Source of the DNA: Parvimonas micra
GTDB lineage: Bacteria; Bacillota; Clostridia; Tissierellales; Peptoniphilaceae
Length of the DNA: 64,000 bases
NCBI RefSeq assembly: GCF_021300775.1
Contig: NZ_JAJTJP010000001.1
Location: 434,001-498,000 of the forward strand
Direction: 5' to 3'
Part shown: positions 400 through 30,450 of the stretch, piece by piece
Numbering within the stretch: position 1 is the first letter of the stretch
Layout of the letters: each line of letters begins with the position of its first letter
Notes under the pieces: generated by a model
What the model was told of the DNA's origin: nothing
What the model saw: only the letters and a program-made list of their open reading frames with translations
Databases searched by the model: none
Made by a program: the position numbers and the translations under genes

Positions 400-414
400 A
401 TTACCAAATTATTT

Positions 415-446: not shown

Positions 447-507
447 TATTAAATTATTTTAATATATTTAGTTTATTCCTATAATATTAGATTTTTTTGT
501 AATAATA

Positions 508-516
508 TGATATAAT
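508..516 (+). promoter_or_regulatory. Extended -10 promoter for the comEA-sel operon
   Basis: TGATATAAT is a perfect extended -10 element (TGnTATAAT), about 48 bases before the comEA start. The -35 region is weak (TAGATT at 488-493 with a 17-bp spacer). It is the only good promoter between the asnS terminator and comEA, and may drive the whole run to 15.4 kb. Confidence 0.6.
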
Positions 517-563
517 TAAACTGTATCTTTATTTCGTAAATGCAATAATTGAGGTGTATTATT

Positions 564-1169
564 ATGAAGAATAAAAAAGACATAATTTTGATTGTTAGTT
601 TGTTTTTGGGATTATCAGTACTTGGATTTGGTTATAAATTTTTTGCTTCAAAAAATTATAATAAAGAAGATATACAATCAACTAAATTTGAGAATAAAAC
701 TAAAAATGATGATGAGCCTAGTGATAAAAGTAATACGAGTTCAGAAATTTTTATACATATTGATGGAGAAGTGAATAATCCAGGATTATATAAAATGTTT
801 AACGGGGATAGAATTGATGATGCAATTCGTGCAGCTGGTGGATTAACTGTCGATGCAGATAAATCAAAAATTAATTTAGCTATTAAATTAACAGATGAAA
901 TGAAAATACATATCTATAAAAAAGGTGAATCACATTCTGAATCTATTAATAGTTTAAATAATTCTAATTCTAATAATAAGTTAGTAAATATTAATACAGC
1001 AAGTAAAGAAGAACTTTGCAAATTACCAGGAATAGGCGAAAATAAGGCAAAACTTATAATTGAATATAGGGAAAAACATAAATTTACAAAAATTGAAGAT
1101 ATTACAAAAGTTTCTGGAATAGGAAAAAAAACTTTTGAAAAAATAAAAAATGACATTACAGTAGAATAG
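564..1169 (+). CDS. comEA: ComEA-like DNA-binding competence protein
   Basis: The protein has 201 residues. An N-terminal membrane anchor (about 7-27) is followed by a polar linker, an SLBB-type domain (about 62-118, containing HIDGEVNNPGLY and AIRAAGG) and a C-terminal pair of helix-hairpin-helix motifs. The first motif is LPGIGENKAKLIIEYR and the second VSGIGKKTFEKI. This is the architecture of Gram-positive ComEA, a membrane-bound receptor that binds double-stranded DNA during uptake. The ATG at 564 is chosen over an in-frame TTG at 549 because GAGGTG lies 7 bases upstream of it. No comEC follows, which is unusual, so a role in competence is inferred only. Eight bases separate it from selD. 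Confidence 0.85.
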   Translation: MKNKKDIILIVSLFLGLSVLGFGYKFFASKNYNKEDIQSTKFENKTKNDDEPSDKSNTSSEIFIHIDGEVNNPGLYKMFNGDRIDDAIRAAGGLTVDADKSKINLAIKLTDEMKIHIYKKGESHSESINSLNNSNSNNKLVNINTASKEELCKLPGIGENKAKLIIEYREKHKFTKIEDITKVSGIGKKTFEKIKNDITVE

Positions 1170-1177
1170 GAGATTAT

Positions 1178-2233
1178 ATGAAAAATATTGATTTAAAAGA
1201 TATAAAATTAACATCATATGCAAAAACGTCTGGATGAGCTGCTAAAGTAGGTCCAGATATTCTGGACGAGGTTTTATCTGGTTTAGATAATAGAACTTCT
1301 AGAAGTGAAGATTTACTAGTTGGAATTGAAACTTCTGATGATGCTGCAGTATATAGAATCAATGATGAACTAGCTTTAATTGAAACGTTAGACTTTTTTA
1401 CTCCAATAGTAGATGATCCTTTTACCTTTGGAAAAATAGCTGCTACTAATTCTCTATCAGATGTTTATGCTATGGGAGGAGAACCAACTATGGCTATGAA
1501 TATAGTATGTTTTCCAAATTGTTTACCGCCAAAAGTATTAACTGAAATACTTAGAGGTGGACTAGAAAAAATGAAAGAAGCAGAATGTTTACTTATAGGT
1601 GGACATACTGTGCAAGATGATGAACCAAAATATGGATTAAGTGTTTCCGGTTTTGTTCATCCTAAAAAGGTTTGGAAAAATTCATCTGCTAGAGTAGGTG
1701 ATGTTCTAATTATAACTAAACCTATTGGACTTGGTGTTATAAATACAGCTATAAAGGGTGGAATAGCAACAAGCGAAGAAATAGCAGATGCAACTCATAC
1801 AATGGAAACACTAAATAAATATGCAAAAAGAGCAGTAGAAAATAATACAATAAATTCATGTACAGATATAACAGGATTTGGTTTAATGGGACACTGTTAC
1901 GAAATGGCAAAGGGATCAAATACTACATTTGAACTAGATAGTTCTAATATGCCTATTTTAAATGGCGCCTTAGATTATGCAAATATGGGATTAATTCCTA
2001 AAGGATGCTATGATAATAAAAAATTTGTTGGAAATAACTATATTTTAGAAAATGAAATCGATGAATCTTTACTAAATGTAATGTTTAATCCAGAAACTTC
2101 AGGTGGATTACTTATAACTGTTCCTGAAAATGAAGTAGAAGATATATTAGAAAAATTGAAGGAAATACCTACTAGATTTGCTGTAATAGGAAGAGTAGTA
2201 GAAAAATCTGAAAAATATTTGACTATTAAATAA
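1178..2233 (+). CDS. selD: Selenide, water dikinase containing selenocysteine (in-frame UGA)
   Basis: SelD makes selenophosphate, the selenium donor for selenocysteine, from selenide and ATP. The frame opens at ATG 1178 (RBS AGGAGAT) and contains one in-frame TGA at codon 20 (1235-1237). Read as Sec, the N-terminus is TSG-U-AAKVGP, matching the family's catalytic (Cys/Sec)-x-x-Lys motif. The downstream frame is intact and family-like (GGEPTMAMNIVCFPN, GGHTVQDDEPKYG, TDITGFGLMGH, NPETSGGLL), giving 351 residues, close to the usual length. A conventional gene caller would start at 1472 and lose 98 residues. A hairpin just after the UGA supports recoding, as do selA and selB immediately downstream. 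Confidence 0.95.
1251..1267 (+). promoter_or_regulatory. SECIS-like hairpin for UGA recoding in selD
   Basis: GTCCAGA and TCTGGAC form a perfect 7-bp stem around TAT, starting 13 bases after the UGA. The apex lies about 21 bases downstream of the UGA, within the window used by bacterial SECIS elements bound by SelB. If only the GTCC/GGAC stem closes, the loop has G at its second position, which fits the bacterial SECIS rule as I recall it. The fold is read by eye. Confidence 0.75.
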
Positions 2234-2244
2234 TGGAGATATTT

Positions 2245-3633
2245 ATGAATTTGTACAAAATGATACCTAAAGTTGATCAACTTTTAGAAAATGATGTAAT
2301 TAATAAACTATTAAAAAGTAATTCTAAAAATTTAGTTATGGAGTCGATCCATGAAGAGCTAGATAATATTAGAAATAAAATTTCAAGTGGTTATGACGAA
2401 AATTCAATAACTAATTATATTAAAAATTTAGTAAGTAGTATTGAGAAAAATGTATATAATAAAAATATATTAAATTTAAGAAAAGTAATTAATGCTTCTG
2501 GTGTAGTTATTCATACGAATCTAGGAAGATCTGTATTAAATGAGGAAATATTCGAAAATATTAAGAATGTATCAATCGGATACTCCAATCTTGAATATGA
2601 TTTAGAAAAAGGTGAAAGAGGCTCTAGATATTCTCATTTAACAAATATTATTAAGAAAATTACTGGAGCAGAAGACTGCATTGTTGTAAATAATAATGCT
2701 GCGGCTGTAATGTTAATTTTATCTACAATGGCAAAAGGAAAGAATGTAATTACTAGTAGAAGTGAATTAGTTGAAATAGGTGGATCATTTAGAATACCTG
2801 ATGTATGTAGAGAAAGTGGAGCTGAACTTAAAGAGATTGGAACTACAAATAAAACACATCTTAGTGATTATGAAAATGCAATAGATGAAAATACATCAGC
2901 ATTCTTTAAAGTTCATCAAAGCAATTTTAAAATCTTAGGCTTTACTGAATCGGTATCTTCTTTTGAGTTAAATGAATTGAAAGAAAAATATAATATTCCA
3001 ATAATAGAAGATTTAGGTTCAGGAGTTTTAATAGATTTATCTAAATATGGGTTATGTCATGAACCTACAGTTCAAGAATGCATCAAAAATGGGGTAGATA
3101 TTGTAAGTTTTAGTGGTGATAAACTTCTAGGTGGAGTACAGGCTGGTATTATTGTTGGAAAAAAAGAATATATTCAAAAAATGAAAAAGAACCAGTTAAC
3201 AAGAGCATTAAGAGTAGATAAATTTACTCTTTCTGCACTAGAATCTGTGTTTTCTTACTATATTGATGAAGAAGTTGCGGTATCAAAGATACCCACTTTA
3301 AATATGCTAACTATAAGTATAGAAAAACTTAATGAAAAAGCAGAAAAACTAATTGAATATATTAGTAAAAGTTCAGAATTTGAATTTGAAATTATTAATA
3401 TTAATTCAGAAGTTGGTGCAGGTTCACTACCAACTCAAAAATTACCTTCAAAAGCAATAAAAATAATATCTAAATCTTATACAGAAAATGAATTGGAACA
3501 AAAACTAAGAGGTTATAGAATTCCAATTATTGCTAGAATTTATAAAGGTAACTTAATTTTAGATGTTAGAACAATTTTTGAGAATGAATTTTATATAATT
3601 AAAGAAGCAATTGAATCTTTAATAGGAGAATAG
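2245..3633 (+). CDS. selA: L-seryl-tRNA(Sec) selenium transferase
   Basis: SelA converts Ser-tRNA(Sec) to Sec-tRNA(Sec) with selenophosphate, using pyridoxal phosphate. The 462-residue product has the family N-terminus (IPKVDQLLEN) and INASGVVIHTNLGRS. It also has the PLP-lysine segment SFSGDKLLGGVQAG, with the lysine at about residue 293, equivalent to the known Lys of E. coli SelA. An in-frame ATG at 2233 exists, but GGAG lies just upstream of the ATG at 2245, which gives the standard N-terminus. One base separates it from selB. Confidence 0.95.
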   Translation: MNLYKMIPKVDQLLENDVINKLLKSNSKNLVMESIHEELDNIRNKISSGYDENSITNYIKNLVSSIEKNVYNKNILNLRKVINASGVVIHTNLGRSVLNEEIFENIKNVSIGYSNLEYDLEKGERGSRYSHLTNIIKKITGAEDCIVVNNNAAAVMLILSTMAKGKNVITSRSELVEIGGSFRIPDVCRESGAELKEIGTTNKTHLSDYENAIDENTSAFFKVHQSNFKILGFTESVSSFELNELKEKYNIPIIEDLGSGVLIDLSKYGLCHEPTVQECIKNGVDIVSFSGDKLLGGVQAGIIVGKKEYIQKMKKNQLTRALRVDKFTLSALESVFSYYIDEEVAVSKIPTLNMLTISIEKLNEKAEKLIEYISKSSEFEFEIININSEVGAGSLPTQKLPSKAIKIISKSYTENELEQKLRGYRIPIIARIYKGNLILDVRTIFENEFYIIKEAIESLIGE

Positions 3634-3634
3634 T

Positions 3635-5539
3635 ATGGATAATAAAAAAAATATTATCGTTGGAACTGCCGGTCATATTGATCATGGAAAAACAACATTA
3701 ATTAAAGCAATAACTGGCAGAAATACTGATAGACTAAAAGAAGAACAAAGTAGGGGAATATCAATCGAGCTAGGTTTTACTCATTTTGACTTAAATGATG
3801 ATTTGAGGGTTGGTATTATTGATGTTCCTGGACATGAAAAATTTATAAAAAATATGCTTTCTGGTGTTTGTGGTATGGATATTATCATATTAGTAGTAGC
3901 TGCTGATGAAGGAATCATGGCACAAACAAAAGAACATTTAGATATTTTAAATTTAATCGGAATAAAAAATGGTATAATCGCGTTAACAAAGTGTGATTTA
4001 GTAGATAAAGATTGGATTGAACTTGTTAAATTGGATATTTCTGACGAAGTTAAAGGAACTTTCTTAGAAGATGCAAGAATAATTGAAATATCCTCAATTG
4101 AAAAAACAGGTATTGATATTTTAAAAAACGAAATAATTAGAATTGTTGATACTTTACCCGAAAAAGATTTAAATTCAAATCCAAGACTATATGTAGATAG
4201 ATCTTTTTCAATTACTGGATTTGGTACTGTAGTTACAGGAACCTTAATTTCAGGAACTTTAAAAATAGATGATGAACTTTTAATTTATCCTGAAAACAAA
4301 TTAACAAAAGTTAGAAATTTACAAGTTCATGATAGTAATGTTAATGCAGCTTTTGCAGGACAACGTGTTGCTATAAATTTAGCAAATGTAAAAAAAGAAG
4401 ACGTCCCAAAAGGCTCTGTATTGGTTCCAAATAATACTTTTACTGAAAGTAGTATTATAGATATTAAATTGAAAACTGTAAATTTGCCTTTTGCAATAAC
4501 TAATAGAACTAGATTTCATCTATATATAGGATCAAATGAGGTTTTATGTAGAGCAATTTTATTAGAAGACGAGGAATTAGAATCTAATAAAGAATATATA
4601 ATTCAATTAAGATTAGAAGAGCCAATAATCAGTAAAAGAAATGATAAGTTCATCCTTAGACTTTTTTCTCCTCTATATACTATAGGTGGAGGGTATATTA
4701 TTGACTCTAACGCTACTAAGAAAAAAAGATATAATTCTAATGATATTGATAAAATTAAACAACTTGATAATTGTACCTTTAAGGAGTATATTTATAATTA
4801 TATAGATAGATTTAGTAATAATTTTTACTCCGAAAAAAATTATTATAGTTTATTTTCTGATTCTTCTGAAAATATCACAAATCTTATTAATGATTTAATT
4901 TCAGAAAAAGAAATTATTTCTTTTGGAAATGGTCCGGATAGATTAATTATTTCTAAAAATTTTATGAATAATTTAATTAATAAAATTACTTTATTTATTG
5001 GAGAATTTCACAAGAAATTTCCAAAGAGAATAGGTGTATCTAAAGAAACTTTGAAATCTAAGTTTTTTGATACACTAAATGGTAAAATAAAAAATGAATT
5101 TATAAACTATTTAATATCTGATAAATTTAATGTATCCGATGAATATGTTTCTTTATTAGATTTTAAAATTTCACTTGATGACTTAGATTATAAAAGAATT
5201 GAATCTATAAAGAATACATTCAATTCTGATAAGTTTTCTATAATCAATTTTGAAGATTTTAAAATTGATATATCTATAGAACACTTTAAAGAACTAATTT
5301 TATATTTAATAAGTAATAAAGAGGTAATAAAATTAGACTCTGGTTATATGCTAAAAACAAACTATGATTTAGCTGTAAATAAGATAAAAGAATTTATTGT
5401 AAATAATGGATCGATTTCCGTTTCAGATGCTAGAGATTTACTTAATTCAAACAGAAAATCAACAATGGAATTACTTGAATTCTTAGATAAAGAAAAAATA
5501 ACTTTAAGAAAAGATAACGAGAGAATATTAGTAAAATAG
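3635..5539 (+). CDS. selB: Selenocysteine-specific elongation factor SelB
   Basis: SelB is the EF-Tu-like GTPase that delivers Sec-tRNA to UGA codons marked by SECIS. The 634-residue protein has GTPase motifs GHIDHGKT (13-20), DVPGHEK and TKCD; SelB proteins usually have TKxD in place of NKxD. Translation-factor beta-barrel domains follow. A C-terminal winged-helix region of about 250 residues binds the SECIS RNA. The length matches bacterial SelB. It sits in the same operon as selD and selA. The cognate tRNA gene selC was not found in this window. Confidence 0.95.
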   Translation: MDNKKNIIVGTAGHIDHGKTTLIKAITGRNTDRLKEEQSRGISIELGFTHFDLNDDLRVGIIDVPGHEKFIKNMLSGVCGMDIIILVVAADEGIMAQTKEHLDILNLIGIKNGIIALTKCDLVDKDWIELVKLDISDEVKGTFLEDARIIEISSIEKTGIDILKNEIIRIVDTLPEKDLNSNPRLYVDRSFSITGFGTVVTGTLISGTLKIDDELLIYPENKLTKVRNLQVHDSNVNAAFAGQRVAINLANVKKEDVPKGSVLVPNNTFTESSIIDIKLKTVNLPFAITNRTRFHLYIGSNEVLCRAILLEDEELESNKEYIIQLRLEEPIISKRNDKFILRLFSPLYTIGGGYIIDSNATKKKRYNSNDIDKIKQLDNCTFKEYIYNYIDRFSNNFYSEKNYYSLFSDSSENITNLINDLISEKEIISFGNGPDRLIISKNFMNNLINKITLFIGEFHKKFPKRIGVSKETLKSKFFDTLNGKIKNEFINYLISDKFNVSDEYVSLLDFKISLDDLDYKRIESIKNTFNSDKFSIINFEDFKIDISIEHFKELILYLISNKEVIKLDSGYMLKTNYDLAVNKIKEFIVNNGSISVSDARDLLNSNRKSTMELLEFLDKEKITLRKDNERILVK

Positions 5540-5549
5540 GAGTTGTTTT

Positions 5550-6233
5550 ATGAAATTAAAAATATTAATGGCTTTACCTATTGATTCACAAATTAATGAC
5601 TTGATGTACTCAATGTTAGAAGATGAAAATTATGAAATTACAACAGCCAATAATATTGAAGATACTATAATTTTGGCTGATCAGAAAAATTTTGACATTA
5701 TAATCATGGATATGAATTTTAAAGATGGTACTGGGTTAGATTTGAAAAGAAAATTAAATGAATTTTGTGATGTACCAACAATCATAACAACAACATTAAA
5801 AGATGATATGCAAAAAATTTTAATTTTTGAGTATGGTGCTGATGATTACTTAATTTATCCATTTAATATTCTTGAATTAAAAGCAAGGATTCGTGCAATA
5901 ATGAGAAGATTTGGTCAAAGGAGAACAGATATAGATAATTTAATATTTGCTGATGATTTAGAGTTTAATATTGTTGGAAGGACAGTAAAGCTAAAAGGTG
6001 AAGAAGTAGATTTAACTGGAAAAGAGTTCGATATTTTGTATATAATGGCTATTAACCCAGAAAAAATATTTAGTAGAGAAGATATAGCAAAAATAGTATG
6101 GAAAGAAGAACATGTTAGCGACTATAGAAAAATAGATGTACATATCCGAAGATTACGTGAAAAAATTAATAAAGGTGATGTAACATATATTCAAACTAAG
6201 TGGGGAGAAGGCTACTATTATAAAAAAATATAA
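5550..6233 (+). CDS. Orphan OmpR-type response regulator with degenerate receiver
   Basis: The 227-residue protein has an N-terminal receiver-like domain (1-120) and a C-terminal OmpR/PhoB winged helix (about 130-227; LTGKEFDILYIMAINPEKIFSRE, DVHIRRLREKI, WGEGYYY). The phospho-acceptor Asp is present (D54 in IIIMDMNF). The N-terminal acidic pair is replaced by L9-P10, and the conserved Lys of the KPF motif is replaced by Y103 in LIYPF. No histidine kinase gene is nearby. The gene lies 10 bases after selB and 19 before pheS with an AGGAG site. It is probably a DNA-binding regulator whose receiver is not switched by ordinary phosphorylation; its targets are unknown. Confidence 0.85.
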   Translation: MKLKILMALPIDSQINDLMYSMLEDENYEITTANNIEDTIILADQKNFDIIIMDMNFKDGTGLDLKRKLNEFCDVPTIITTTLKDDMQKILIFEYGADDYLIYPFNILELKARIRAIMRRFGQRRTDIDNLIFADDLEFNIVGRTVKLKGEEVDLTGKEFDILYIMAINPEKIFSREDIAKIVWKEEHVSDYRKIDVHIRRLREKINKGDVTYIQTKWGEGYYYKKI

Positions 6234-6252
6234 TCTTAAATAGGAGAAAGAC

Positions 6253-7272
6253 ATGAGAGAATTAATTAGTAATTTAAAAGAAAAAATTTTAAGTGAAATA
6301 AAAGATTCTGATAAAAATACATTAGAAGAAATTAGAATAAAATATTTGGGTAAAAAAGGTGAATTTACAAGTATTTTAAGAAATATGGCAAATGTTTCAA
6401 AAGAAGAAAGACCAAAAATTGGGGAACTTATTAATCAAACTAAAACAGAAATTGAAAATAAGATTAATGATAAAATAGAATTTTTCAATAAAAAAGAACT
6501 TGAAAAAAGAATTAAACAAGAAACTATAGATGTGACAATCAACAAAAAATTTATAGATATGGGTCATAGACATCCTCTTAACCAAACAATGGAAGAGCTT
6601 GAAAACTTTTTTATTTCTATGGGTTTTTCTATTATTGATGGACCAGAAATCGAAACGGTAGAAAATAATTTTGACAAATTAAACTCTCCAATGGATCATC
6701 CTTCAAGAGAGATGTCAGATACATTTTATATTGATAAAGATTTATTATTAAGAACTCACACTTCCCCTGTTCAAATTAGAACTATGTTATCAACAAAACC
6801 ACCTATTAAAATGGTTTCTGCCGGAAGAACATTTAGATTTGATGAGGTAGATGATACTCATTCTCCGATGTTTCATCAAATTGAAGGACTTGTAGTAGAT
6901 GAAAATATAAATATGAGTAATTTAATTGAAACACTTAATACTTTTATTAAAGAATTTTTTGGGGAAGATATGCAAACTAGATATAGACCGCATTATTTTC
7001 CATTTACTGAACCTAGCGCAGAAGTAGATGTATCATGCTTTAATTGTAAAGGTAAAGGATGTAAAGTATGTAATGGAACTGGTTGGAGTATGGAATTACT
7101 AGGATGTGGAATGGTTCACCCTAATGTATTAGAAGCATGTGGAATTGATTCTAAAAAATATTCTGGATTTGCTTTTGGCATGGGAATTGATAGAATTACA
7201 ATGGTTAAACATAAAATTAATAATATTAGACTTTTATATGATAATGATAAAAGATTTTTAGAACAATTTTAA
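6253..7272 (+). CDS. pheS: Phenylalanyl-tRNA synthetase alpha subunit
   Basis: PheS is the catalytic subunit of the alpha2-beta2 PheRS that charges tRNA-Phe. The 339-residue protein has an N-terminal coiled-coil tRNA-binding region (1-100), then class II motifs: GHRHPLNQTMEELENFF, RTHTSPVQIRTM, motif 2 (AGRTFRFDEVDDTHSPMFHQIEG) and motif 3 (GFAFGMGIDRITM). A CxxC pair region (SCFNCKGKGCKVCNGTGW) resembles the zinc-like insertion seen in many Firmicutes PheS. pheT follows after 10 bases. No T-box leader is present upstream. Confidence 0.97.
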   Translation: MRELISNLKEKILSEIKDSDKNTLEEIRIKYLGKKGEFTSILRNMANVSKEERPKIGELINQTKTEIENKINDKIEFFNKKELEKRIKQETIDVTINKKFIDMGHRHPLNQTMEELENFFISMGFSIIDGPEIETVENNFDKLNSPMDHPSREMSDTFYIDKDLLLRTHTSPVQIRTMLSTKPPIKMVSAGRTFRFDEVDDTHSPMFHQIEGLVVDENINMSNLIETLNTFIKEFFGEDMQTRYRPHYFPFTEPSAEVDVSCFNCKGKGCKVCNGTGWSMELLGCGMVHPNVLEACGIDSKKYSGFAFGMGIDRITMVKHKINNIRLLYDNDKRFLEQF

Positions 7273-7282
7273 GGGGGCTTAT

Positions 7283-9646
7283 ATGTTATTACCAATTAAC
7301 TGGGCAAAAGAATATATTGATATAGATAATGATATTATGGATATATGTGATAAAGTTACTTTAACAGGATCTCATGTTGAATCTATTGCAAAACTAGGTA
7401 CAAATATAAGTAATATTGTTGTAGGTAGAATTATAGATATTTATAGACATGAAAACTCTAATAAACTATGGATTACGAAAGTTGATATTGGAGATGAAAT
7501 TGTACAAATTGTAACTGCTGCTCAAAATTTAAAACAATTTGATTATGTTCCTGTTGCAAAGGTAAACTCAACACTAGCAGATAATACAAAAATTAAAGAA
7601 GCAAAATTAGTAGGAGAACTTTCTCAAGGAATGTTCTGTAGCTATAAAGAATTAGGTTATCCTGACTCAGTAATCCCTAAAGAATATAAAGATGGAGTAT
7701 TAAGAATTTTTGATGATAATTTAATTTTAGGCTCTGATATTAGAGAAGTTTTAGACTTAAATGATACTGTTGTTGAATTTGAAATTACGCCTAATAGACC
7801 CGATTGCTTATCTATTGTTGGTATGGCAAGAGAAATAGCTGCTAGTTTTAATAAGAAATTAAATAAAATCAACTTTAAAAATTTAACAGATCTTATTAAT
7901 AATAAACTTAGTATTAATATAAATAGCGAAAATTGTCAAAGATATTCAGCTAGTATAATAAGAAATGTAATAATTGAAGAATCAAATAGAAAGATTCAAA
8001 ATTATTTATTAAACTCAGGTATTAGACCAATTAATAATATAGTAGATTTAACAAATTTTGTAATGCTTGAATTAGGTCAACCGCTTCATGCATTTGATTT
8101 AGATAAATTAGAAGGAAATATTACAATAAGAAATGCTTTTGAAGGAGAAAAAGTTGTTACTTTAGATGACGTTGAAAGAGTACTATCCTGTGATGATATG
8201 CTCATTTGTGATGATGTTAAACCTATTGCAATAGCTGGTGTAATGGGGCTAAAAAATTCTGAAATAGATTCTAATACAAAAAACATACTAATTGAGTCTG
8301 CTTATTTTACAAAAAAATCAATCAAATCTACTTCAAAAAAATTAGGTTTAAAATCTGAAGCTTCAATTAGATATGAAAAAGGTTTAACATCTGAACATAC
8401 TTTGAATGTACTATCTAGATTTTTATATTTACTTGAAAAATATGTTAAATGCGAAATTCAATCTGTATCTGATGTAAAAAACGGATTAAACAATGAAACA
8501 ATTATTGAATTTGATCCGATTTTAGTAAAGAGATTATTAGGAGTCGAAATAGATAATTCAGAGATTATTAATTACTTAAATTTATTAGAAATTAAAACTG
8601 AAGAAAAGAATAATATCATTATTTGTTATATACCTTATTTTAGAATAGATTTGTCAATTAAAGAAGATATTGTTGAAGAAATAGGTAGACTATATGGCTA
8701 TTCTAATCTTAATCCTACGCCTATTTTAGGGCCAAATACAATAGGTAGAAAAAGCAAGAAGAGAGTTTTTGAAGATAAAGTAAAAAGTATTTTATTAAAT
8801 TTAGGATTATATGAAATTACTACTTATTCATTTATTGGTGGAAATATAATTTCTAAGTCAAAAATGGATACTAATAATACAGTTAAAATTTTAAACCCAT
8901 TAGGTGAAGAATTTAGCATAATGAGAAAGTCTTTACTACCAAATATTTTTGACGTTTTATCAAAAAATTTAAATTATAAAAATGAAGATTTGCTAATTTA
9001 TGAATTAGGTAATACTTTCCACGCTATTAACGGTGAAAAAGTTCCATTAGAAATGAAAAAAATTGTTATAGGTTCTTACGGAAAATATGATTTTTACTAT
9101 ATTAAAGATATTATATTTAATTTATTCAATAGTTTAAATATAAAAAACTTTGAATTTGTAAAGAATAGTGCAATAGAATATTTTCACCCTGGAGTTTGTG
9201 CAGATATATTAGTAGATGGTGAAAAACTTGGAGAAATAGGTCAAGTATCATATGAAGTTTGTAAAAATTTTTCAATTAAAAAAAATATTTTTGCTTGCGA
9301 AATTGATATAGAAAAGCTAAGAGAAAAATCAAGTTTAATAAAAATTTATGAACCTTTAATCAAATATCCTGCAGTTAAAAGAGATTTGGCTATAATAGTT
9401 GATAAAACAACTGATAGTGGTACTGTTGAGAAAATAATAAGAAATAATTCAAATGATTTATTAAAAAATGTTGAACTATTTGATATCTATACTGGAAATC
9501 AAATTGATGAAGGAAAAAAATCAATGGCATATAAATTAACTTTCCAATCTAAGGATAAAACTTTAGTTGATGAAGATATAAATAGTATAATTGACTGTAT
9601 ACTTAAAGATTTAAAAGACAAATTAGGTGCTTATTTAAGATTTTAA
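7283..9646 (+). CDS. pheT: Phenylalanyl-tRNA synthetase beta subunit
   Basis: The 787-residue beta subunit carries an N-terminal EMAP/OB tRNA-binding domain (about 40-150), B3/B4 editing domain (GIRPINNIVDLTNFVMLELGQPLHAFD), B5 domain, a catalytic-like domain and the C-terminal ferredoxin-fold anticodon-binding domain (IKYPAVKRDLAIIVD, YKLTFQSKDKTLVDEDI). Editing of mischarged Tyr-tRNA(Phe) is the known role of B3/B4. The start has a GGGGG site. Length and order are normal for the family. Confidence 0.96.
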   Translation: MLLPINWAKEYIDIDNDIMDICDKVTLTGSHVESIAKLGTNISNIVVGRIIDIYRHENSNKLWITKVDIGDEIVQIVTAAQNLKQFDYVPVAKVNSTLADNTKIKEAKLVGELSQGMFCSYKELGYPDSVIPKEYKDGVLRIFDDNLILGSDIREVLDLNDTVVEFEITPNRPDCLSIVGMAREIAASFNKKLNKINFKNLTDLINNKLSININSENCQRYSASIIRNVIIEESNRKIQNYLLNSGIRPINNIVDLTNFVMLELGQPLHAFDLDKLEGNITIRNAFEGEKVVTLDDVERVLSCDDMLICDDVKPIAIAGVMGLKNSEIDSNTKNILIESAYFTKKSIKSTSKKLGLKSEASIRYEKGLTSEHTLNVLSRFLYLLEKYVKCEIQSVSDVKNGLNNETIIEFDPILVKRLLGVEIDNSEIINYLNLLEIKTEEKNNIIICYIPYFRIDLSIKEDIVEEIGRLYGYSNLNPTPILGPNTIGRKSKKRVFEDKVKSILLNLGLYEITTYSFIGGNIISKSKMDTNNTVKILNPLGEEFSIMRKSLLPNIFDVLSKNLNYKNEDLLIYELGNTFHAINGEKVPLEMKKIVIGSYGKYDFYYIKDIIFNLFNSLNIKNFEFVKNSAIEYFHPGVCADILVDGEKLGEIGQVSYEVCKNFSIKKNIFACEIDIEKLREKSSLIKIYEPLIKYPAVKRDLAIIVDKTTDSGTVEKIIRNNSNDLLKNVELFDIYTGNQIDEGKKSMAYKLTFQSKDKTLVDEDINSIIDCILKDLKDKLGAYLRF

Positions 9647-9659
9647 TTAGGAGAATATT

Positions 9660-10190
9660 ATGGATACTAACAAGATTAAAGTTAATATCGCGGGGACTGT
9701 TTATACAATTATTGGTGAAAAAACTAGAGCTGAAGTAGAAGAGATTGCAAATTTTGTTGATGAGGAAATAAAAAAAATTACATCTCACAACTACTTATTA
9801 AATTCTACTATGGCTGCTACTTTAGTTGCTTTAAACATCTCAAGTGATTATTTTGATTTAAAGAAAGAGATTAACTTATTAAGTGAAGATAGTGAATTTC
9901 CTATAAAAAAACAAGAAGAATTCTTAAAGAATAATCAAAAAATAGAAAAAGAAAATGAAGAATTAAAAGAAACAATTAATGAATTAAATGATAAAAATAA
10001 TATATTAACGAAAACAATAAGTTCCGTTGAAAAAAGATATGAAAATTTAGAAAAATTATCTTACGAACATTTTTATCAATTAAAACAAAAAAATGAAATA
10101 ATAATAGAATTACAAAATGAAATTCTAAAATTAAAGAATGAATATATTAACAAAATAAAAAAAATGGAGATAATGAATAATAATGAATAA
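9660..10190 (+). CDS. zapA: Cell division protein ZapA
   Basis: The 176-residue protein begins with a ZapA domain (NKIKVNIAGTVYTIIGEKTRAEVEEIANFVDEEI) and continues as a long coiled coil (about 85-170) rich in Glu, Lys and Asn. ZapA binds and bundles FtsZ at the division septum. It is longer than the roughly 90-residue Bacillus ZapA because of the coiled-coil tail. Its end overlaps the mutS2 start by 8 bases. The position between pheT and mutS2 is the usual Firmicutes one. Confidence 0.88.
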   Translation: MDTNKIKVNIAGTVYTIIGEKTRAEVEEIANFVDEEIKKITSHNYLLNSTMAATLVALNISSDYFDLKKEINLLSEDSEFPIKKQEEFLKNNQKIEKENEELKETINELNDKNNILTKTISSVEKRYENLEKLSYEHFYQLKQKNEIIIELQNEILKLKNEYINKIKKMEIMNNNE

Positions 10191-12537
10191 TAAAGTACTT
10201 AAAACTTTAGAATTTTATAAAATTATAAATATGTTATTAGATCGTTCTCAAAGTATAATAGGAAAAAATGTTATAAAAAATTCGCATATTTCTAAAGAAT
10301 TATCAGAAGTTCAAAAATTATTAGATGAAACTGATGAAGCTTATAGATTTATTATAAAACATAGGTTACCAGGTATTTCTAATATAGATAACTTAGATGA
10401 AGACTTTAAACTTATTGAGCTAGGTCACTTTTTATTACCAAAAAAACTTCTAGAAGTTTGGAAACTTCTTAATACATCAAAGTCTTTAAAGAATATAATT
10501 ACAGAAGAAGAATCAATAGAGTATAATAATATTTATTCCTTGTTAAATTCATTAAATATTTATGCTCAATTAGAAAGAGATTTAGAAGTTTCTATAATTT
10601 CAGCTGAAGAAATTTCAGATGAAGCAAGTCATGAATTAAAAAGAATTAGAAGGATGATTAAGTCCAAAAATGACTTAATTAGAGATAGATTAAATCAACT
10701 AATTTCAACATCAGATAAATTAATGGATAATATATATACATTAAGAGATGGTAGATATGTAGTACCAGTTAGAAGTGAATTTAAAAATTCTTTTAAAGGT
10801 ATTGTTCATGATCAATCTTCATCAGGTCAAACAGTCTTCATAGAACCAATGTTTGTAATTGACTTAAATAATGATTTAAAAAAATTAGAAATAGAAGAAG
10901 AAAAAGAAATCGAAAGAATTTTAAGAGAATTTTCAAAGAGAATTTATGAAATTCTACCACAATTAATTACTAATTTATCAATTATTTCAAGCATTGATTT
11001 TATTTTTGCTAGAGGTAAATTAGCATATGATATGGAAGCTATAAAGCCGATTATTAATGATAATGGTATTATTTCTTTAAAGTCAGCAAAACATCCTCTT
11101 ATCGATAAAGATAAGGTTGTTCCTATTGATATATCTCTTGGAAATAGTTTCAACACTTTAGTAATTACTGGACCTAATACCGGTGGAAAAACTGTTACTT
11201 TAAAAACTGTTGGTATTTTAACATTAATGACACAATTTGGCTTAATGATTCCTTGTTTTGATAATTCTGAAGTAGCTATTTTTGATGAGATATTTGCAGA
11301 TATAGGAGATGAACAAAGTATTGAACAATCTTTAAGTACTTTCTCTTCCCATATGAAAAATATAATAGATATAATAAATAACGCTAAGACTAATTCTCTA
11401 ATTCTTTTTGATGAACTAGGATCAGGAACAGATCCAGAGGAAGGATCAGGTCTATCTATTTCTATATTAAATTATTTCTTAGAAAAAAATATCAGGACAA
11501 TAGCAACAACACATTATAGTCAATTAAAAATGTATGCTATGTCAACTGAAAATGTTCAAAATGGAGCAATGGAATTTAATGTAGAAAAATTAGAGCCTAC
11601 TTATAAATTAATAATTGGAATTTCTGGAAAATCAAATGCATTTGAAATTTCAAAAAAATTAGGGCTTGATGATAGCTTTATAATTAATGCAAAAAAATTT
11701 ATTTCTAATAATGATTTATCTTTTGATAAATTAGTTAGTAATGTTGATAATAGACGTAAAGAATATGAAGAGCTTATTATAGAACAAAGAGAATTATTAA
11801 ATTTTAATAAAAAAATTAAGCAAGAATACGAAAACAAACTTGAAAAATTTAATAGTCAAAAAGAAAAAAGAATAAAAAAATTAGAAGAATATATTGAAAA
11901 TTCTATTAATGAAACTGATAAATTCTGTAGAGAAACTATTAATCATATAAATAAAGCTAGATCAAAAGAACAATCTCACAAATTAAAGAAAATTTCAGAA
12001 GAAATATTGGAGAAAATTGAAAAAATAAATCATAATAAATCTATTAAAAATGATATTAATTCTAATATATCTAATGAACCTTTAATGTTAGGAGAAGAAG
12101 TTAAAGTTCTAAGTTTAAATGAAAATGGTTTTATTCAAACTTTACCTGATAAAAACGGAAATGTTCAGGTTAAAATAGGAATTTTAAAAGTAAACGCTAG
12201 TATAAATGATATTATAAGAATAGAAAATATTATTGATAAATCTAAAGAGAAAACTTCTTATTCAAAATCTACATTTATAAAAAGTGATAAATTGTATAGT
12301 AACAAGATTGATGTTAGAGGTTATAATACAGAAGATGCAATCTATGAAATTGATAAATTTTTAGATGATTCTTTCATTGCAAATTTAAATGAGGTAACAA
12401 TAGTTCATGGAAAAGGAACTGGTATTTTAAGAAATAACATAACAGATTTCTTAAAAAAACATAAATTAGTTAAATCATTTAGCTTTGGAAAGTTAAATGA
12501 AGGTGGCGATGGTGCTACAGTTGTAAAATTAAAATAG
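10183..12537 (+). CDS. mutS2: MutS2 / Smr-domain ATPase
   Basis: The 784-residue protein has a MutS-type core with Walker A TGPNTGGKT and Walker B DELGSGTDPEEGS. A long coiled-coil clamp follows (about 500-640). It ends with an Smr domain (IDVRGYNTEDAIYEIDKFLDD, IVHGKGTGILRNNI, GGDGATVV). MutS2 lacks the MutS mismatch-recognition domain. It is known to limit recombination and, in Bacillus, to act on collided ribosomes. The canonical MutS is encoded separately at 23.6 kb. Confidence 0.95.
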   Translation: MNNKVLKTLEFYKIINMLLDRSQSIIGKNVIKNSHISKELSEVQKLLDETDEAYRFIIKHRLPGISNIDNLDEDFKLIELGHFLLPKKLLEVWKLLNTSKSLKNIITEEESIEYNNIYSLLNSLNIYAQLERDLEVSIISAEEISDEASHELKRIRRMIKSKNDLIRDRLNQLISTSDKLMDNIYTLRDGRYVVPVRSEFKNSFKGIVHDQSSSGQTVFIEPMFVIDLNNDLKKLEIEEEKEIERILREFSKRIYEILPQLITNLSIISSIDFIFARGKLAYDMEAIKPIINDNGIISLKSAKHPLIDKDKVVPIDISLGNSFNTLVITGPNTGGKTVTLKTVGILTLMTQFGLMIPCFDNSEVAIFDEIFADIGDEQSIEQSLSTFSSHMKNIIDIINNAKTNSLILFDELGSGTDPEEGSGLSISILNYFLEKNIRTIATTHYSQLKMYAMSTENVQNGAMEFNVEKLEPTYKLIIGISGKSNAFEISKKLGLDDSFIINAKKFISNNDLSFDKLVSNVDNRRKEYEELIIEQRELLNFNKKIKQEYENKLEKFNSQKEKRIKKLEEYIENSINETDKFCRETINHINKARSKEQSHKLKKISEEILEKIEKINHNKSIKNDINSNISNEPLMLGEEVKVLSLNENGFIQTLPDKNGNVQVKIGILKVNASINDIIRIENIIDKSKEKTSYSKSTFIKSDKLYSNKIDVRGYNTEDAIYEIDKFLDDSFIANLNEVTIVHGKGTGILRNNITDFLKKHKLVKSFSFGKLNEGGDGATVVKLK

Positions 12538-12546
12538 GAGTAAATT

Positions 12547-14283
12547 ATGATAAAATTTAAAGATATAGTAGTAGATACTATTTTTAACTTAGATATAAAT
12601 TTAAGTAAAGATGAAATTAAAGAATTAATAGAAACTCCCCCAAATCCAGAAATGGGAGACTATTCTTTTCCTTGTTTTAAATTATCAAAAGAGCTAAGAA
12701 AGGCACCAAATATTATAGCACAAGAATTAGTTAATAGAATCAATATTGAAGATAGTGTTTTCTTTAAAATAAGCAATGTTGGACCATATATTAATTTTTT
12801 TATAAAACCAACAGAATACTTTAGTAACGTTATTTCTGAAATGATTTTAAGGAAATATGATTATGGTTCTTCAAAAAATAATTTAGACAAAACTATTGTC
12901 ATTGACTATTCATCAACTAATATAGCTAAGCCATTTCATATTGGTCATATTAGAAGTACCCTAATAGGAAATGTTATAAAGAATATTTATAAATTTTTAG
13001 GCTATAATACAATTGGAGTAAACCATCTTGGAGATTATGGAACTCAATTTGGTAAAATAATTGCAGCATATAAGTTATGGGGAAATGATGATCAAATTAA
13101 TGCAGATCCTATTAATCAATTACTAAAATTATACGTTGACTTCAATAATCTATGCAAGACAGATGAAAATATGTTAGAAACTGCTAGAAATTATTTTAAT
13201 AGACTAGAAAATGGTGATGAAGAATCTGTCAAGCTTTGGAATTGGTTTAAAGATATAAGTTTATTGGAATTTCAAAAAGTATATGATAAATTAAAAGTTG
13301 AATTTGATTCCTATAGAGGTGAGGCATATCACTCTCAATTTATTAATGATGTTGTTAAAGAACTTGAAGAGAAAAACTTATTAACTGAAAGTGATGGATG
13401 TAAAATAGTAAATCTAGATAAATATAACCTACCACCAGCTTTAATTTTAAAGAGTAATTCTTCAAGTACATATATCACAAGAGATATAGCAACCGCTTTA
13501 ACAAGAAAAAAAGATTATAATTTTAGTAAAAATATTTATGTTGTTGCAACTCAACAAAAATTACATTTTGAACAATTAATCGCTGTTCTTAAAGAAATGG
13601 GATATGAATGGGCTAATGATTGTATACATGTATCCTTTGGAATGGTAAGTGTAAAAGATGATTTTTTAGGAACTTCTGCAAAACTTAGTACAAGGGAAGG
13701 TAATGTAATATTCTTAAATGACGTACTAGAAAAGAGTGTAGAAAAAACATTAGAAATTATAAACGAAAGAAATAATACATTAGAAAATAAAGAAATTGTT
13801 GCTAAAGAAGTTGGTATTGGAGCTGTAATATTCCAAGAATTATTTAATACAAGAATTAAAGATTATTCTTTTGACTGGAATAATGTTCTTAATTTTGAAG
13901 GAGAAACTGGCCCGTATGTTCAATATTCAGCTGCAAGAGCCTATAGTATTTTAGAAAAAAATGATTTTTACTCAAAAATTAATAATATTGATATTTCGAA
14001 ATTTTCTAATTACGAAATGAATGTGGATGAATTAGCTTTGGTAAAGTCTATATATAAATTTGAAGATATATTATTAGATTCTGCAAAAAAATATGAGCCT
14101 TCTATACTTGCTAGGTATATAACTGAAGTAGCAAAGTTGTTTAATAAGTTTTATAATTCTTGTCCTATAAATAATCAAGAAGAGAATATTAAAGAGTTTC
14201 GTTTAGTACTTACTTATTGTTCAAGGATATTAATAGAAATAGGTTTAGGTCTTCTAGGTATGGATACACCCAAAAAAATGTAG
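12547..14283 (+). CDS. argS: Arginyl-tRNA synthetase
   Basis: This 578-residue class I synthetase charges tRNA-Arg. The N-terminal additional domain binds the tRNA D-loop. The HIGH motif appears as FHIGHIRST and the KMSKS-like segment as AKLSTREGNVIFL; ArgRS often lacks a canonical KMSKS lysine. A helical DALR anticodon-binding domain follows (GPYVQYSAARAYSIL onward) and the protein ends in the expected GLGLLGMDTPKKM. RBS AGGAG precedes the ATG. It is close to the usual bacterial length. Confidence 0.96.
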   Translation: MIKFKDIVVDTIFNLDINLSKDEIKELIETPPNPEMGDYSFPCFKLSKELRKAPNIIAQELVNRINIEDSVFFKISNVGPYINFFIKPTEYFSNVISEMILRKYDYGSSKNNLDKTIVIDYSSTNIAKPFHIGHIRSTLIGNVIKNIYKFLGYNTIGVNHLGDYGTQFGKIIAAYKLWGNDDQINADPINQLLKLYVDFNNLCKTDENMLETARNYFNRLENGDEESVKLWNWFKDISLLEFQKVYDKLKVEFDSYRGEAYHSQFINDVVKELEEKNLLTESDGCKIVNLDKYNLPPALILKSNSSSTYITRDIATALTRKKDYNFSKNIYVVATQQKLHFEQLIAVLKEMGYEWANDCIHVSFGMVSVKDDFLGTSAKLSTREGNVIFLNDVLEKSVEKTLEIINERNNTLENKEIVAKEVGIGAVIFQELFNTRIKDYSFDWNNVLNFEGETGPYVQYSAARAYSILEKNDFYSKINNIDISKFSNYEMNVDELALVKSIYKFEDILLDSAKKYEPSILARYITEVAKLFNKFYNSCPINNQEENIKEFRLVLTYCSRILIEIGLGLLGMDTPKKM

Positions 14284-14289
14284 GTGACT

Positions 14290-15405
14290 ATGGATAATTT
14301 ATACAATTATTTTATTAAATTTTCTGAGAGAATATATTTTCTAACAGTAAAAAAAATAGATATTAACGGTAAAATATATGAAAATATTGATATTCCAATT
14401 AACTCTAATGTTTTAATAGACAATATTAAGAATAATAATTTTAATGAAAATATTAATTTAGAATATTTTTTTGAAGGGATTTTATTATTAAATGGTATTG
14501 ATTCTAAATTTAGTAATATAACAGTACTTAATAATTTTATCAAATCAAAAAACATTAACTTATTAGAATTTGTTAAATCTAAAATTGGATTTAATAGCAA
14601 TAATTTGGATAGTATTATATACAACTTATTAATTATAAGAGGACTGCTAAATTTAGAGATATATGATGATTTTATAAGAAAAATTTATGTTAGATTCTTA
14701 TTATCAATAATAGATTATGATAATACTTATCAAAATATGTTTTTAAACGAAATAAAAATATTATTATCAGATTTAAGTAGAAATATTGAAAATGATTCAT
14801 TAATTAATATGTTATATGGTGATTTATACGTTAAGGAAAAATTTTATATAAAAGCAAGTTTATATTATAAGAAATCTATTACTAACACTAATTTCAAAAT
14901 TGATAATATTATCAATAACAAAATTGAAGAAATTAGTAATAAAATCAAAATTGAAGAATTATTACAACTAGTTGATAGATTTAAGTATAATGATTGTTAT
15001 AAAATTTTAGATTCCATAGATAAATTAAATCTTGATAAGGAAGATCTCTATTGGATTGGATATATTTATAATAAATTAAATGAAATTGATAAATCTATTT
15101 ACTATTATGAAAAAGCATTGGATTTAAATGCCGATTTTTTAAATATTTTTTTAGAATTAGGGTTATTATATTACAAGTCGAATAAAATTGAAAAATCGCT
15201 TAAAATTTTCGAAAAAGGACTATCTGTATATATTGATGATGAAAAATTGCTCTTTAATAAGATAGTAATAGAGTTAAAATTAAAAAAATTTAAAAATGCA
15301 AAGGATGACATAGATAAGTTACTGTTGTATGAAGATATAGATAACTCTATAATGAATGATGTATTTTATTTGAAAGAACTGTATAAGGAAGAGTTAGATT
15401 TTTAG
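14290..15405 (+). CDS. TPR-repeat protein of unknown function
   Basis: The protein has 371 residues. I do not recognise the first half (about 1-185), which is Asn/Ile/Leu-rich. The second half contains tetratricopeptide-like helical repeats (ALYYKKSITNTNFK, YWIGYIYNKLNEIDKSIYYYEKALDLNADF, LELGLLYYKSNKIEKSLKIFEKGLSVY). There is no signal peptide or membrane segment. The ATG at 14290 is preferred to the GTG at 14284 because AGGTGA lies just before it. It is the last gene of the comEA-argS run, only 6 bases after argS. TPR proteins usually scaffold other proteins; the partner is not evident. Confidence 0.7.
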   Translation: MDNLYNYFIKFSERIYFLTVKKIDINGKIYENIDIPINSNVLIDNIKNNNFNENINLEYFFEGILLLNGIDSKFSNITVLNNFIKSKNINLLEFVKSKIGFNSNNLDSIIYNLLIIRGLLNLEIYDDFIRKIYVRFLLSIIDYDNTYQNMFLNEIKILLSDLSRNIENDSLINMLYGDLYVKEKFYIKASLYYKKSITNTNFKIDNIINNKIEEISNKIKIEELLQLVDRFKYNDCYKILDSIDKLNLDKEDLYWIGYIYNKLNEIDKSIYYYEKALDLNADFLNIFLELGLLYYKSNKIEKSLKIFEKGLSVYIDDEKLLFNKIVIELKLKKFKNAKDDIDKLLLYEDIDNSIMNDVFYLKELYKEELDF

Positions 15406-15415
15406 TTAAAAAATC

Positions 15416-15444
15416 TTGACTAATAATTAAAAATATAATATAAT
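15416..15444 (+). promoter_or_regulatory. Sigma-A promoter of the tyrosine recombinase gene
   Basis: TTGACT, a 17-bp spacer and a perfect TATAAT. The predicted start site, near 15451, gives a leader of about 110 nt that contains the dif-like inverted repeat. Confidence 0.85.
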
Positions 15445-15503
15445 CTATATATAAATAGAGTAGAGGTTAAATAACAATCTCTTCTTTATTTTAGCTTTTT
15501 TTA

Positions 15504-15531
15504 TTTTCGCAAAATTATAGTTTTGCGAAAA
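15504..15531 (-). other. Candidate dif (Xer recombination) site
   Basis: Two perfectly inverted 11-bp arms (TTTTCGCAAAA and TTTTGCGAAAA) flank a 6-bp centre, TTATAG on + or CTATAA on -. This is the 11-6-11 architecture of Xer dif sites. The - strand centre plus inner arms (AAAACTATAATTTT) resembles, from memory, the core of the streptococcal/lactococcal difSL site used by the single recombinase XerS. It lies 30 bases upstream of a tyrosine recombinase gene and about 1 kb from the point where gene direction flips from all + to all -. It is not a normal terminator, because neither strand has a T-run after the stem. The alternative is an RNA hairpin in the leader. Confidence 0.7.
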
Positions 15532-15561
15532 AAATATTGTAAAAATATTTAGGAGGATTTA

Positions 15562-16536
15562 ATGATTCATTTTGATGATTGCCCAGTAATTTTAGATGAT
15601 TATTTAAATTATTTACTAACAATTAAAGGTCGTTCTAATTTAACTGTTAAAGAATATTATTATGACTTAAAAAGGTTTTTAAAATTCATAATTATGCGAA
15701 AAAAATTATTTGGTTATAATTTAAATTCTGATATAAATGAAGTTTCAATATTATCAATTAATAAACGAGATATTTTAGATATAGATATTACAGATTTACA
15801 CGCATACATATCCTATTGTGATTCTTATTATAACGATTCGACAAAAACAAAAGCAAGAAAAATTTCTGCAATTAAGTCTTGGTTTAAATATCTTCATAAT
15901 ACTGTTGAATTAATTGATAAAAACCCTTCCGAAAAGTTAGAATTACCTAAATTACAAAAAAGAAATCCTGTTTATTTAACCTTATCAGAATCAGAAAAAG
16001 TAATAAATGCAATAAAGTTAGAAGAAAACGAATTTAATAGAGCTAGAGATTTATGTATTATATTAATTTTTTTAACATGTGGTTTAAGAATATCTGAACT
16101 AACAGGTATTAATATTGAGTCTATTAAAGATGATAAATTAAATGTTATAGGAAAAGGAAATAAAGAACGTACTGTTTTTTTAAACGAAAACTGTCTTTAT
16201 GCTATTAAATGCTATTTAAAATTAAGACCTATAACTCCAGATACAACTGCACTATTTATTAGTTCACATAAGAAAAGAATTTCAAATAGATCAATTCAAA
16301 TAAGGTTAAAAAAATATATACAATTAGCAGGGTTAGATCCTAACATCTATACACCGCACAAACTTAGGCATACTGCTGCTACCTTAATGTATAAATACGG
16401 AGACGTAGATATAAGAACAATTCAAAGTATTTTAGGTCATACAAGTGTTGCTACCACGCAAATATACACTCATTTAGATGATGATGACATTAAGAAAGGA
16501 ATTTCTAAAAATCCTATTTCAAAACTAAAAATATAA
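15562..16536 (+). CDS. xerC/xerD-like: Tyrosine recombinase, Xer type
   Basis: The 324-residue protein has an N-terminal SAM-like core-binding domain (about 10-115; LDDYLNYLLTIKGRSNLTVKEY) and a C-terminal catalytic domain. All catalytic residues are present: R176 (CGLRISEL), K198 (GKGNKERTV), H266 and R269 (PHKLRHTAATLM), H293 (LGHTSVATT) and the nucleophile Y302 (QIYTH). Such enzymes resolve chromosome dimers at dif, with FtsK. It has its own promoter and AGGAGG site, and a dif-like palindrome lies just upstream. No phage or integron genes are near, so a housekeeping Xer role is more likely than an integrase role. Whether it is XerC, XerD or a single-recombinase type cannot be settled from sequence alone. 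Confidence 0.9.
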   Translation: MIHFDDCPVILDDYLNYLLTIKGRSNLTVKEYYYDLKRFLKFIIMRKKLFGYNLNSDINEVSILSINKRDILDIDITDLHAYISYCDSYYNDSTKTKARKISAIKSWFKYLHNTVELIDKNPSEKLELPKLQKRNPVYLTLSESEKVINAIKLEENEFNRARDLCIILIFLTCGLRISELTGINIESIKDDKLNVIGKGNKERTVFLNENCLYAIKCYLKLRPITPDTTALFISSHKKRISNRSIQIRLKKYIQLAGLDPNIYTPHKLRHTAATLMYKYGDVDIRTIQSILGHTSVATTQIYTHLDDDDIKKGISKNPISKLKI

Positions 16537-16545
16537 ATTTTAATA

Positions 16546-16577
16546 AAAAAAGACAAGTTTTATAACTTGTCTTTTTT
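16546..16577. terminator. Bidirectional terminator between xer and efp
   Basis: A 14-bp perfect stem, AAAAAAGACAAGTT with its complement around a TTAT loop, gives a T-run on both strands. It serves the convergent recombinase (+) and efp (-) genes and marks the transcription convergence point. Confidence 0.95.
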
Positions 16578-16580
16578 CTA

Positions 16581-17138
16581 TTAAACTCTTGATAAATATT
16601 CATTAGTTCTAGTATCAATTTTAATTTTATCTCCATTATTAATGAATAACGGAACAGTAACAACAGCACCAGTTTCTACCTTAGCCGGTTTGTTAGCTCC
16701 AGTTGCTGAATCACCTTTAACACCAGGTTCAGTTTCAACAACTTCTAATTCTACGAAGTTTGGAGCATTAACTTGAAATGCCTTTCCATCATGAAATCTT
16801 ATAGTCGCATTATCATTCTCTCTTAAATATAAAAGCGCGTCTTCAACAACATCAAAATTTAATGGTAACTGTTCATAAGTTTCTGTATCCATAAAGTAAT
16901 ATAGTTCACCATCAGAATATAAATATTGCATTTCTTTAGTTTCAATCTTAGCAATTTCATATTTATCATTTGGATTAAAAGTCATTTCTCTTGAACCGCC
17001 ATTTTTTACTGACTTAATTTTTGTCCTAACAAACGCAGCACCTTTTCCAGGTTTTACATGTTGAAAATCTATAATTTGGTAAACATCTCCATCCATTTCA
17101 AATGTTGTGCCTTTTCTAAAATCTCCAGCTGATATCAT
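16581..17138 (-). CDS. efp: Elongation factor P
   Basis: EF-P relieves ribosome stalling at polyproline stretches. The 185-residue product has the KOW-like N-terminal domain with the conserved loop [14 protein letters not shown], where the tip lysine is the usual modification site. Two OB domains follow, ending in [21 protein letters not shown]. Length is standard. RBS AGGAGG sits 7 bases before ATG. It has its own promoter and its transcript ends at the shared terminator. Confidence 0.97.
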
Positions 17139-30117: not shown

Positions 30118-30450
30118 ATATTAAGCAAAACTATAAGCCGTGTTCTGTATTTGACAATCATCTATCTAGACAAATTGTTACCAATTTGTTCAAGCAATCT
30201 ACCTATGAACGTAGCGAGCAACTACAAAAGTTCAATCTTGATCTTGCACCGAATGGGGTTTACATAGCCATATAGTCTCCTATATGCTGGTAAGCTCTTA
30301 CCTCACCTTTCCACCCTTACCATAAATGGCGGTATATCTCTGTTGCACTAGCCTTAGGGTCGCCCCCACTGGACGTTATCCAGCATTCTGCTCTATGGTG
30401 CACGGACTTTCCTCGTGAATAATCACGCGATTGTCTGTCTTACTTAATAT
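30118..30450 (-). ncRNA. rnpB: RNase P RNA
   Basis: The 394 bases between rnr and the nif3-like gene hold the catalytic RNA of RNase P, which matures tRNA 5' ends. Read on the - strand, the conserved 5' block GAGGAAAGTCCGTGC (about 30400-30414) and the 3' block ACAGAACACGGCTTATAG (about 30131-30148) form the P4 region. A middle block containing GGTGAGGTAAGAGC and the AGATAGATGATTG segment are also present. Ends were set by the P1 helix: 14 bases at 30437-30450 pair continuously with 30118-30131 (with G-U pairs). Total is about 333 nt. The 5' end is only 2 bases from the upstream stop codon. Confidence 0.95.

Follow-up and report, generated by a model that had tools for sequence, protein, structure and literature searches.

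The best reading of a 28-bp palindrome and its adjoining gene in Parvimonas micra is an Xer/dif system with a single recombinase, different from XerS/difSL, in which the encoded protein is the presumed catalyst. The palindrome was studied in a window of 64 kb, by which the whole stretch of DNA analysed is meant. It is very probably the dif site of the chromosome, and the adjoining gene its only recombinase; we infer that the protein would bind and cleave the site, depend on FtsK and resolve chromosome dimers. One enzyme thus probably separates fused chromosomes at this site before cell division. The observations are the uniqueness of the site, a switch in GC skew together with a position opposite dnaA, arms that are conserved and change jointly, a centre kept asymmetric, an association with one family of recombinases, and a single natural insertion, both ends of which fall within the site. 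The system is spread through Clostridia and is not private to P. micra. The features are collected in the table.

Table. Coordinates of the site, of the neighbouring recombinase gene and its leader (positions in the window), and of the element found in a relative (positions in its contig)
Feature	Coordinates	Strand	Remarks
dif-like site	15504..15531	.	arms 15504-15514 and 15521-15531; 6-bp centre TTATAG 15515-15520
Xer-type tyrosine recombinase gene, 324 aa	15562..16536	+	only one detected in the genome
Ribosome-binding sequence AGGAGG of the recombinase gene	15551..15556	+	read directly
Promoter-like TTGACT-17-TATAAT (11/12 match)	15416..15444	+	pattern scan
Leader stem-loop, predicted	15453..15491	+	folding prediction; between the promoter-like sequence and the site
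Plasmid-like element in the site	G002:C1:732120-752242		loci L131, L132, L225; 20-kb Rep_3/MobL conjugative type

The perfect 11-6-11 inverted repeat with a CTATAA centre on the minus strand, which had been described in the initial annotation, was read as two exactly inverted 11-bp arms, TTTTCGCAAAA-TTATAG-TTTTGCGAAAA. The complete tyrosine recombinase gene that it had placed next to the repeat was found as an open reading frame of 324 residues, the ATG of which (15562) follows the end of the site after a gap of 30 bases. Perfect 11-6-11 palindromes are not rare, as the window contains four of them including the site, and the palindrome by itself is therefore little proof. The other three (at 16548, 43190 and 60490) stay perfect with centres of 4, 8 or 10 bases, in the manner of stem-loops. 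A single copy of the motif had been expected in the genome, and in a whole-genome search (1,476,176 bases in 5 contigs, 98.71% complete) the arms of the site were found with at most three mismatches at one place only. A scan with a site model, built from a set of sites that includes this one, gave 38.2 bits at the site versus 19.8 bits at the runner-up place. Nor was a better dif encountered elsewhere: the canonical XerCD-type core, in what we take to be its consensus, was absent from the genome with 0 or 1 mismatch, and with up to three mismatches this same consensus gave 230 + 265 matches versus 303 + 294 in the reversed control.

The recombinase has a Phage_integrase domain and an N-terminal SAM-like domain. 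Profile searches with PF00589, TIGR02224 and TIGR02225 yielded one match each in the genome, all on this gene, so that no XerC/XerD pair, which would have spoken against the initial annotation, was found; a serine recombinase gene (PF00239) is present on another contig. The protein missed the cut-offs of the profiles for XerC (211.2 versus 335.15 bits), XerD (196 versus 329.6 bits), XerA (NF040815, 197.7 versus 220 bits, although close) and XerS (NF003462, 142.2 versus 267 bits). The last of these values, together with a site geometry that differs from that of difSL, supports the placement outside the XerS lineage that had been proposed. Six residues, R176, K198, H266, R269, H293 and Y302, were invariant among 39 orthologues, and we take them to match the catalytic set of tyrosine recombinases. 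In the AlphaFold2 model (mean pLDDT 85.9, pTM 0.64) residues 294-304 were below 50. Foldseek ranked the archaeal XerA (5hxy, 4a8e) first for this model, followed by XerD and, lower, XerH, all at low TM-scores of about 0.4-0.5; the family profile scored 184.4 bits for XerA, 172.2 for XerD and 105.8 for XerH. In a quick tree of 109 proteins, 58 rows, all from Clostridia and the recombinase among them, form one set (SH-aLRT 100, stem 0.96); the XerC and XerD of E. coli and 11 XerD-like proteins from the recombinase's own order fall outside it. The orthologue from Peptoniphilus gorbachii has its place in the tree among members of the same family, which points to kinship with Peptoniphilaceae (order Tissierellales). 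This tree took in 22 of the 39 A2 proteins and no XerS, XerH, XerA or XerL; it left out L051, L052, L073, L078, L091 and L110 as well as the XerD-like L147 and L148.

GC skew amounted to +0.247 over positions 1-15503 versus -0.260 over 16581-64000, and its cumulative maximum, at 16165, is inside the recombinase gene. Between 7.3 and 26.1 kb, all listed open reading frames of at least 120 aa point rightward through the recombinase and leftward beyond it. The recombinase gene was located at 0.445-0.538 of the circumference from dnaA in all eight single-contig relatives. A wider sample of 47 loci with 2.5-6 kb on each side showed a left skew exceeding the right one in 38 and a clean flip in 22, the signal being weaker away from near relatives. 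An FtsK gamma domain is encoded approximately 34 kb from the site, and this domain was present in 10 of the 11 genomes searched. A dent in the skew at 39-45 kb coincides with genes on the other strand; two tandem MgtE-type-like transporter genes (recognized by eye) are found there at 40405-43165, in the orientation opposite to that of the neighbouring genes. The sole match of an Rfam scan was a bacterial RNase P class A RNA at 30118-30446 on the minus strand.

At the level of the order, an orthologue of the recombinase was present in 40 of 41 genomes, its own included. The site was situated within 2.5 kb of the gene, on either side, in 35 of these 40 (the adjacent copy in G002 being degenerate) and about 4.7-25 kb away in G011, G013, G019 and G024; in G017 no site was found. 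Usually it starts 34-82 bp upstream of the gene. It is downstream in G006, G007, G009, G012, G014 and G022, overlaps the 3' end of the gene in G018, and is separated from it by ordinary-looking genes (by eye) in G013 and G024. When sites were chosen by core alone, the 2.5-kb surroundings of 78 orthologous genes, that of the window among them, contained 56 CAAAA-N6-TTTTG cores in 54 loci versus 2.5 in shuffles, and the outer arms were complementary at 5 or more of 6 positions in 47 of the 56 cores versus 0.05 in shuffles. The recombinase gene of G003 (G003:C1:40695-41662) contains one TGA and one TAA, either an assembly error or decay.

Altogether 74 sites were collected, of which 64 are distinct; 56 of the 74 have perfect arms. 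The set is without the G024 site, the two junction copies of G002 and the sites of G001, G003, G005, L198, L201, L209, L210 and L211, which are identical to listed ones; as its members were collected by palindrome or core, arm symmetry is biased upwards, though the centre should be unaffected. The collected sites have 32 different left arms and mostly perfect pairing, which implies that both arms change jointly between lineages. A palindromic 6-bp centre was found in none of the 64 distinct sites. The inner four bases of the centre were palindromic in two of them versus 9.2 expected from column shuffles, which ignore kinship between sites (P 0.002). These two sites, both of this genus, have T..G or C..A at the outer centre pair, so that their centres are asymmetric as well. 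An asymmetric centre is what a recombination site directed by its crossover region requires; an operator does not require it.

The palindrome might instead serve only as an operator that lies in the recombinase leader and is bound by the recombinase itself or by another dimeric regulator. It mostly precedes the gene by no more than 100 bp, is positioned here downstream of a promoter-like sequence, and has a symmetry that fits a dimer. However, it is downstream of the gene or overlaps its 3' end in the genomes named above and is 0.7-25 kb off in others, and an operator would leave the terminus position and the element in G002 (see below) unexplained. Because the position of the site varies and the centres avoid symmetry, a role as operator only was rejected as unlikely. 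Autoregulation alongside dif function is possible. Nine promoter-like sites were found in the region versus 12.6 in shuffles, and the one at 15416-15444 is therefore suggestive at most; if used, it would place the site inside the 5' leader of the gene. The order in this leader from 15416-15491 onward, promoter-like sequence, predicted stem-loop, site, leaves room for autoregulation. Just upstream of the site, AGGAWW-N11-16-GAAT, which we take to be the sigma-H consensus, occurs in 9 of 21 loci (L010, L012, L013, L016, L020, L022, L024, L025 and L052; at 61-101 bp before the recombinase gene) versus 0.38 in shuffles. To judge from this motif, spore-forming relatives may start to express the recombinase as they enter sporulation.

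A dif worked by two recombinases would imply that the second one was lost, was missed in an assembly that is 98.71% complete, or is a XerD as in spore-forming relatives. A XerD above the cut-off is indeed present in addition in 7 of the 41 genomes, all from other families of the order. One of these, G033, also has unequal arms, as has G034, and in the seven genomes the site may be used by two enzymes. Against this, the arms in P. micra are identical, and no second tyrosine recombinase was detected in its genome or in nine relatives, which gave one match each to the XerC and XerD profiles (G003 is 89% and G015 81% complete). We regard a second recombinase at the P. micra site as improbable. The extra XerD limits the term 'single recombinase' to this genome and the nine relatives, and for these the independent single-recombinase system suggested in the initial annotation is supported. 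In several genomes of other families XerD-like proteins (L136-L146) are encoded near the lone recombinase, the two being 39 kb apart in G029.

In a sample of the class Clostridia the recombinase gene was detected in 78 of 118 genomes (E <=1e-40). The 28 class-level loci inspected are the new ones among the best-scoring 30 matches for these 78 genomes and are a non-random choice; in 22 of them a palindrome with 10-11 of 11 pairs and an AAA-N6-TTT core was present near the gene, and in six (L205, L208, L212, L213, L214 and L218) no such site was seen in the flanks read. The expectation that orthologues elsewhere would have the palindrome near them was thus borne out in the order and in most of these loci. 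In the named genome collection, where 40 of the 41 loci L051-L091 were scanned (L084 was omitted), the site was present in 23 and absent from the flanks read in 17. Carriers include Clostridium hydrogeniformans (L057), Clostridium lacusfryxellense (L063), Pseudoflavonifractor gallinarum (L072) and Peptoniphilus gorbachii (L058). Two or three recombinase-family matches each were obtained in G074, G114 and G132, for which duplicated or mobile copies are possible.

In one genome of the same genus, the single-contig G002, the TPR gene and the recombinase gene, which are neighbours in the window, are parted by an insert. The site copy beside the TPR gene reads TTTTCGCAAAA-TAATAG-TTTTGCGAAAA, the one beside the recombinase TTTTCACAACT-TTATAG-TTTTGCGAAAA with the insert-side arm altered, and 20,067 bases separate the two. 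Judged by eye, the flanking chromosome looks like the corresponding DNA of the window as far as each copy. On the insert are genes for a Rep_3 initiator, a MobL relaxase, a T4SS coupling protein and, as a weak match, a TraG-type ATPase, and also for lysozyme-like/NlpC-P60, RadC-domain and SpaA/TED surface proteins; its Rep and relaxase have plasmid matches only at less than 60% identity. No match to any recombinase family was obtained among 18 of its open reading frame stretches and the coupling protein (overlapping antisense frames being outside the scan). In the G002 genome both profiles detected a single tyrosine recombinase, and a serine recombinase (PF00239) was not found. The simplest reading of this single case is that a plasmid-like element was integrated by the host Xer protein. 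Other elements are known to integrate at dif (PMC5357621, PMC9765430).

That the protein is a tyrosine recombinase and that one genome has an element in the site would also agree with a domesticated or recent integrase, for which the palindrome is the attachment site, with no tie to chromosome dimers. Yet orthologues are present in 40 of the 41 genomes and at the terminus in all eight closed ones, no element was seen beside the gene in the 64-kb window, and the G002 element sits between the gene and the far site copy without having the recombinase among its own genes. An integrase is therefore very hard to reconcile with these data. The second-best places of the site model in G008, G013, G022, G035 and G036 turned out to be palindromes whose arms differ. 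Inspection by eye of the listed open reading frame starts nearby revealed nothing element-like bounded by the site in G008, G013, G035 and G036. In viral contigs GTCRCAAAAT-N4-ATTTTGYGAC had 0 matches; the arms of the own genus matched 14 loci and those of Oscillospiraceae one. An Oscillospiraceae-type site (L182:1392-1417) is found beside a terminase-like frame (by eye) on a viral contig of 4.6 kb, which, to go by these letters, is possibly that of a phage using its host's site. Relatives of the recombinase also occur on virome scaffolds, which lack annotation and may be of bacterial origin; the four examined carry the label 'unverified'.

It is scarcely credible that the site is a chance palindrome or an intrinsic terminator, as the four perfect palindromes in the window and its predicted folding as an RNA hairpin could suggest. 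Conservation is far above that of shuffles, neither strand has a run of T after the stem, and a strict scan of 15200-16800, which misses the stem-loop at the end of the gene as well, found no terminator-like site.

With the palindrome as dif, each of the two identical 11-bp arms would be occupied by one of two identical recombinase subunits, and the two copies of the site on a dimeric chromosome would pair. Strand exchange across the 6-bp centre would be activated by FtsK as it translocates DNA at the closing septum, and the chromosome dimer would thereby become two monomers. Since the two arms do not differ, direction must come from the asymmetric centre, and the order of strand exchange from either the centre or FtsK. 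We further consider it reasonably likely that much of Clostridia uses a Xer type that was not set apart before. It would form one clade outside XerC, XerD, XerS and XerA by the tests used here, with its own gene-linked 11-6-11 site of identical arms. Arm symmetry and centre asymmetry would both be under selection, so that direction and order would come from the centre or FtsK alone, unlike in XerCD, where the proteins differ, and in XerH, where the arms differ. The extra XerD of some spore-formers would have another task, and plasmid-like elements free of a recombinase would enter the chromosome via the site.

For many Clostridia these results offer a concrete candidate dif site and recombinase. 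HMM-based dif prediction failed for two AT-rich Clostridium genomes, as PMC3025954 reports, and some of the present sites may be in the predicted-dif list of that paper as ordinary dif. A natural symmetric site with one enzyme makes it testable what orders and directs exchange when proteins and arms are alike. The site may also give mobile elements access to the chromosome. Among the open-licence papers listed in literature searches, none described such a clostridial single-recombinase system.

The core AAAACTATAATTTT may be shared with difSL, as stated in the initial annotation. PMC5357621 gives the arm letters of difSL and its centre length of 11 bp: the site has 31 bp and unequal arms and adjoins the gene for XerS, a protein of 356 aa. 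The P. micra system resembles XerS/difSL in having one recombinase, a gene adjoining the site (at 30 bases), a terminus position, a Gram-positive host and an FtsK gamma domain. It differs in its 28-bp site with a 6-bp centre and identical arms, its protein of 324 aa and the unmet XerS profile. XerH/difH of Campylobacterota likewise combines one recombinase with a 6-bp centre (PMC5241119), the AAAACTATAATTTT core, which occurs in difH of two Arcobacter species (PMC3325230), and a site near the gene (PMC9765430). The arms of difH are unequal and order cleavage (PMC5241119), whereas they are identical here, and XerH matches the family profile below XerA and XerD, at the values given above.

Perfectly symmetric arms are described for XerL/dif of Legionellales, of 10 bp in Legionella and 12 bp in Coxiella, in PMC9765430, where the site was revealed by an integrating element. 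One recombinase, perfectly symmetric arms (11 bp here) and an element exposing the site are shared with this system, XerL being compared by description only. In L. pneumophila dif is more than 400 kb from xerL, whereas the site adjoins the gene here, and the XerL arms are unlike known Xer motifs (same paper). XerA/dif of Archaea has one recombinase and a 28-bp site and is described as acting independently of FtsK (PMC5357621). Both the single recombinase and the 28-bp site recur here, 5hxy is the best fold match, and the profile score is near the cut-off; the differences are that XerA/dif is archaeal and FtsK-independent, whereas an FtsK gamma domain is present here and the XerA cut-off was missed. 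With XerC-XerD/dif, in which two recombinases act on unlike arms (PMC5357621), the present system has in common a 28-bp 11-6-11 site at the terminus and an FtsK with a gamma domain. It differs in its one recombinase, its identical arms and a genome from which the canonical dif core is absent. The system thus fails the tested features of XerS, XerCD and XerA, and it shares something with each of the known systems.
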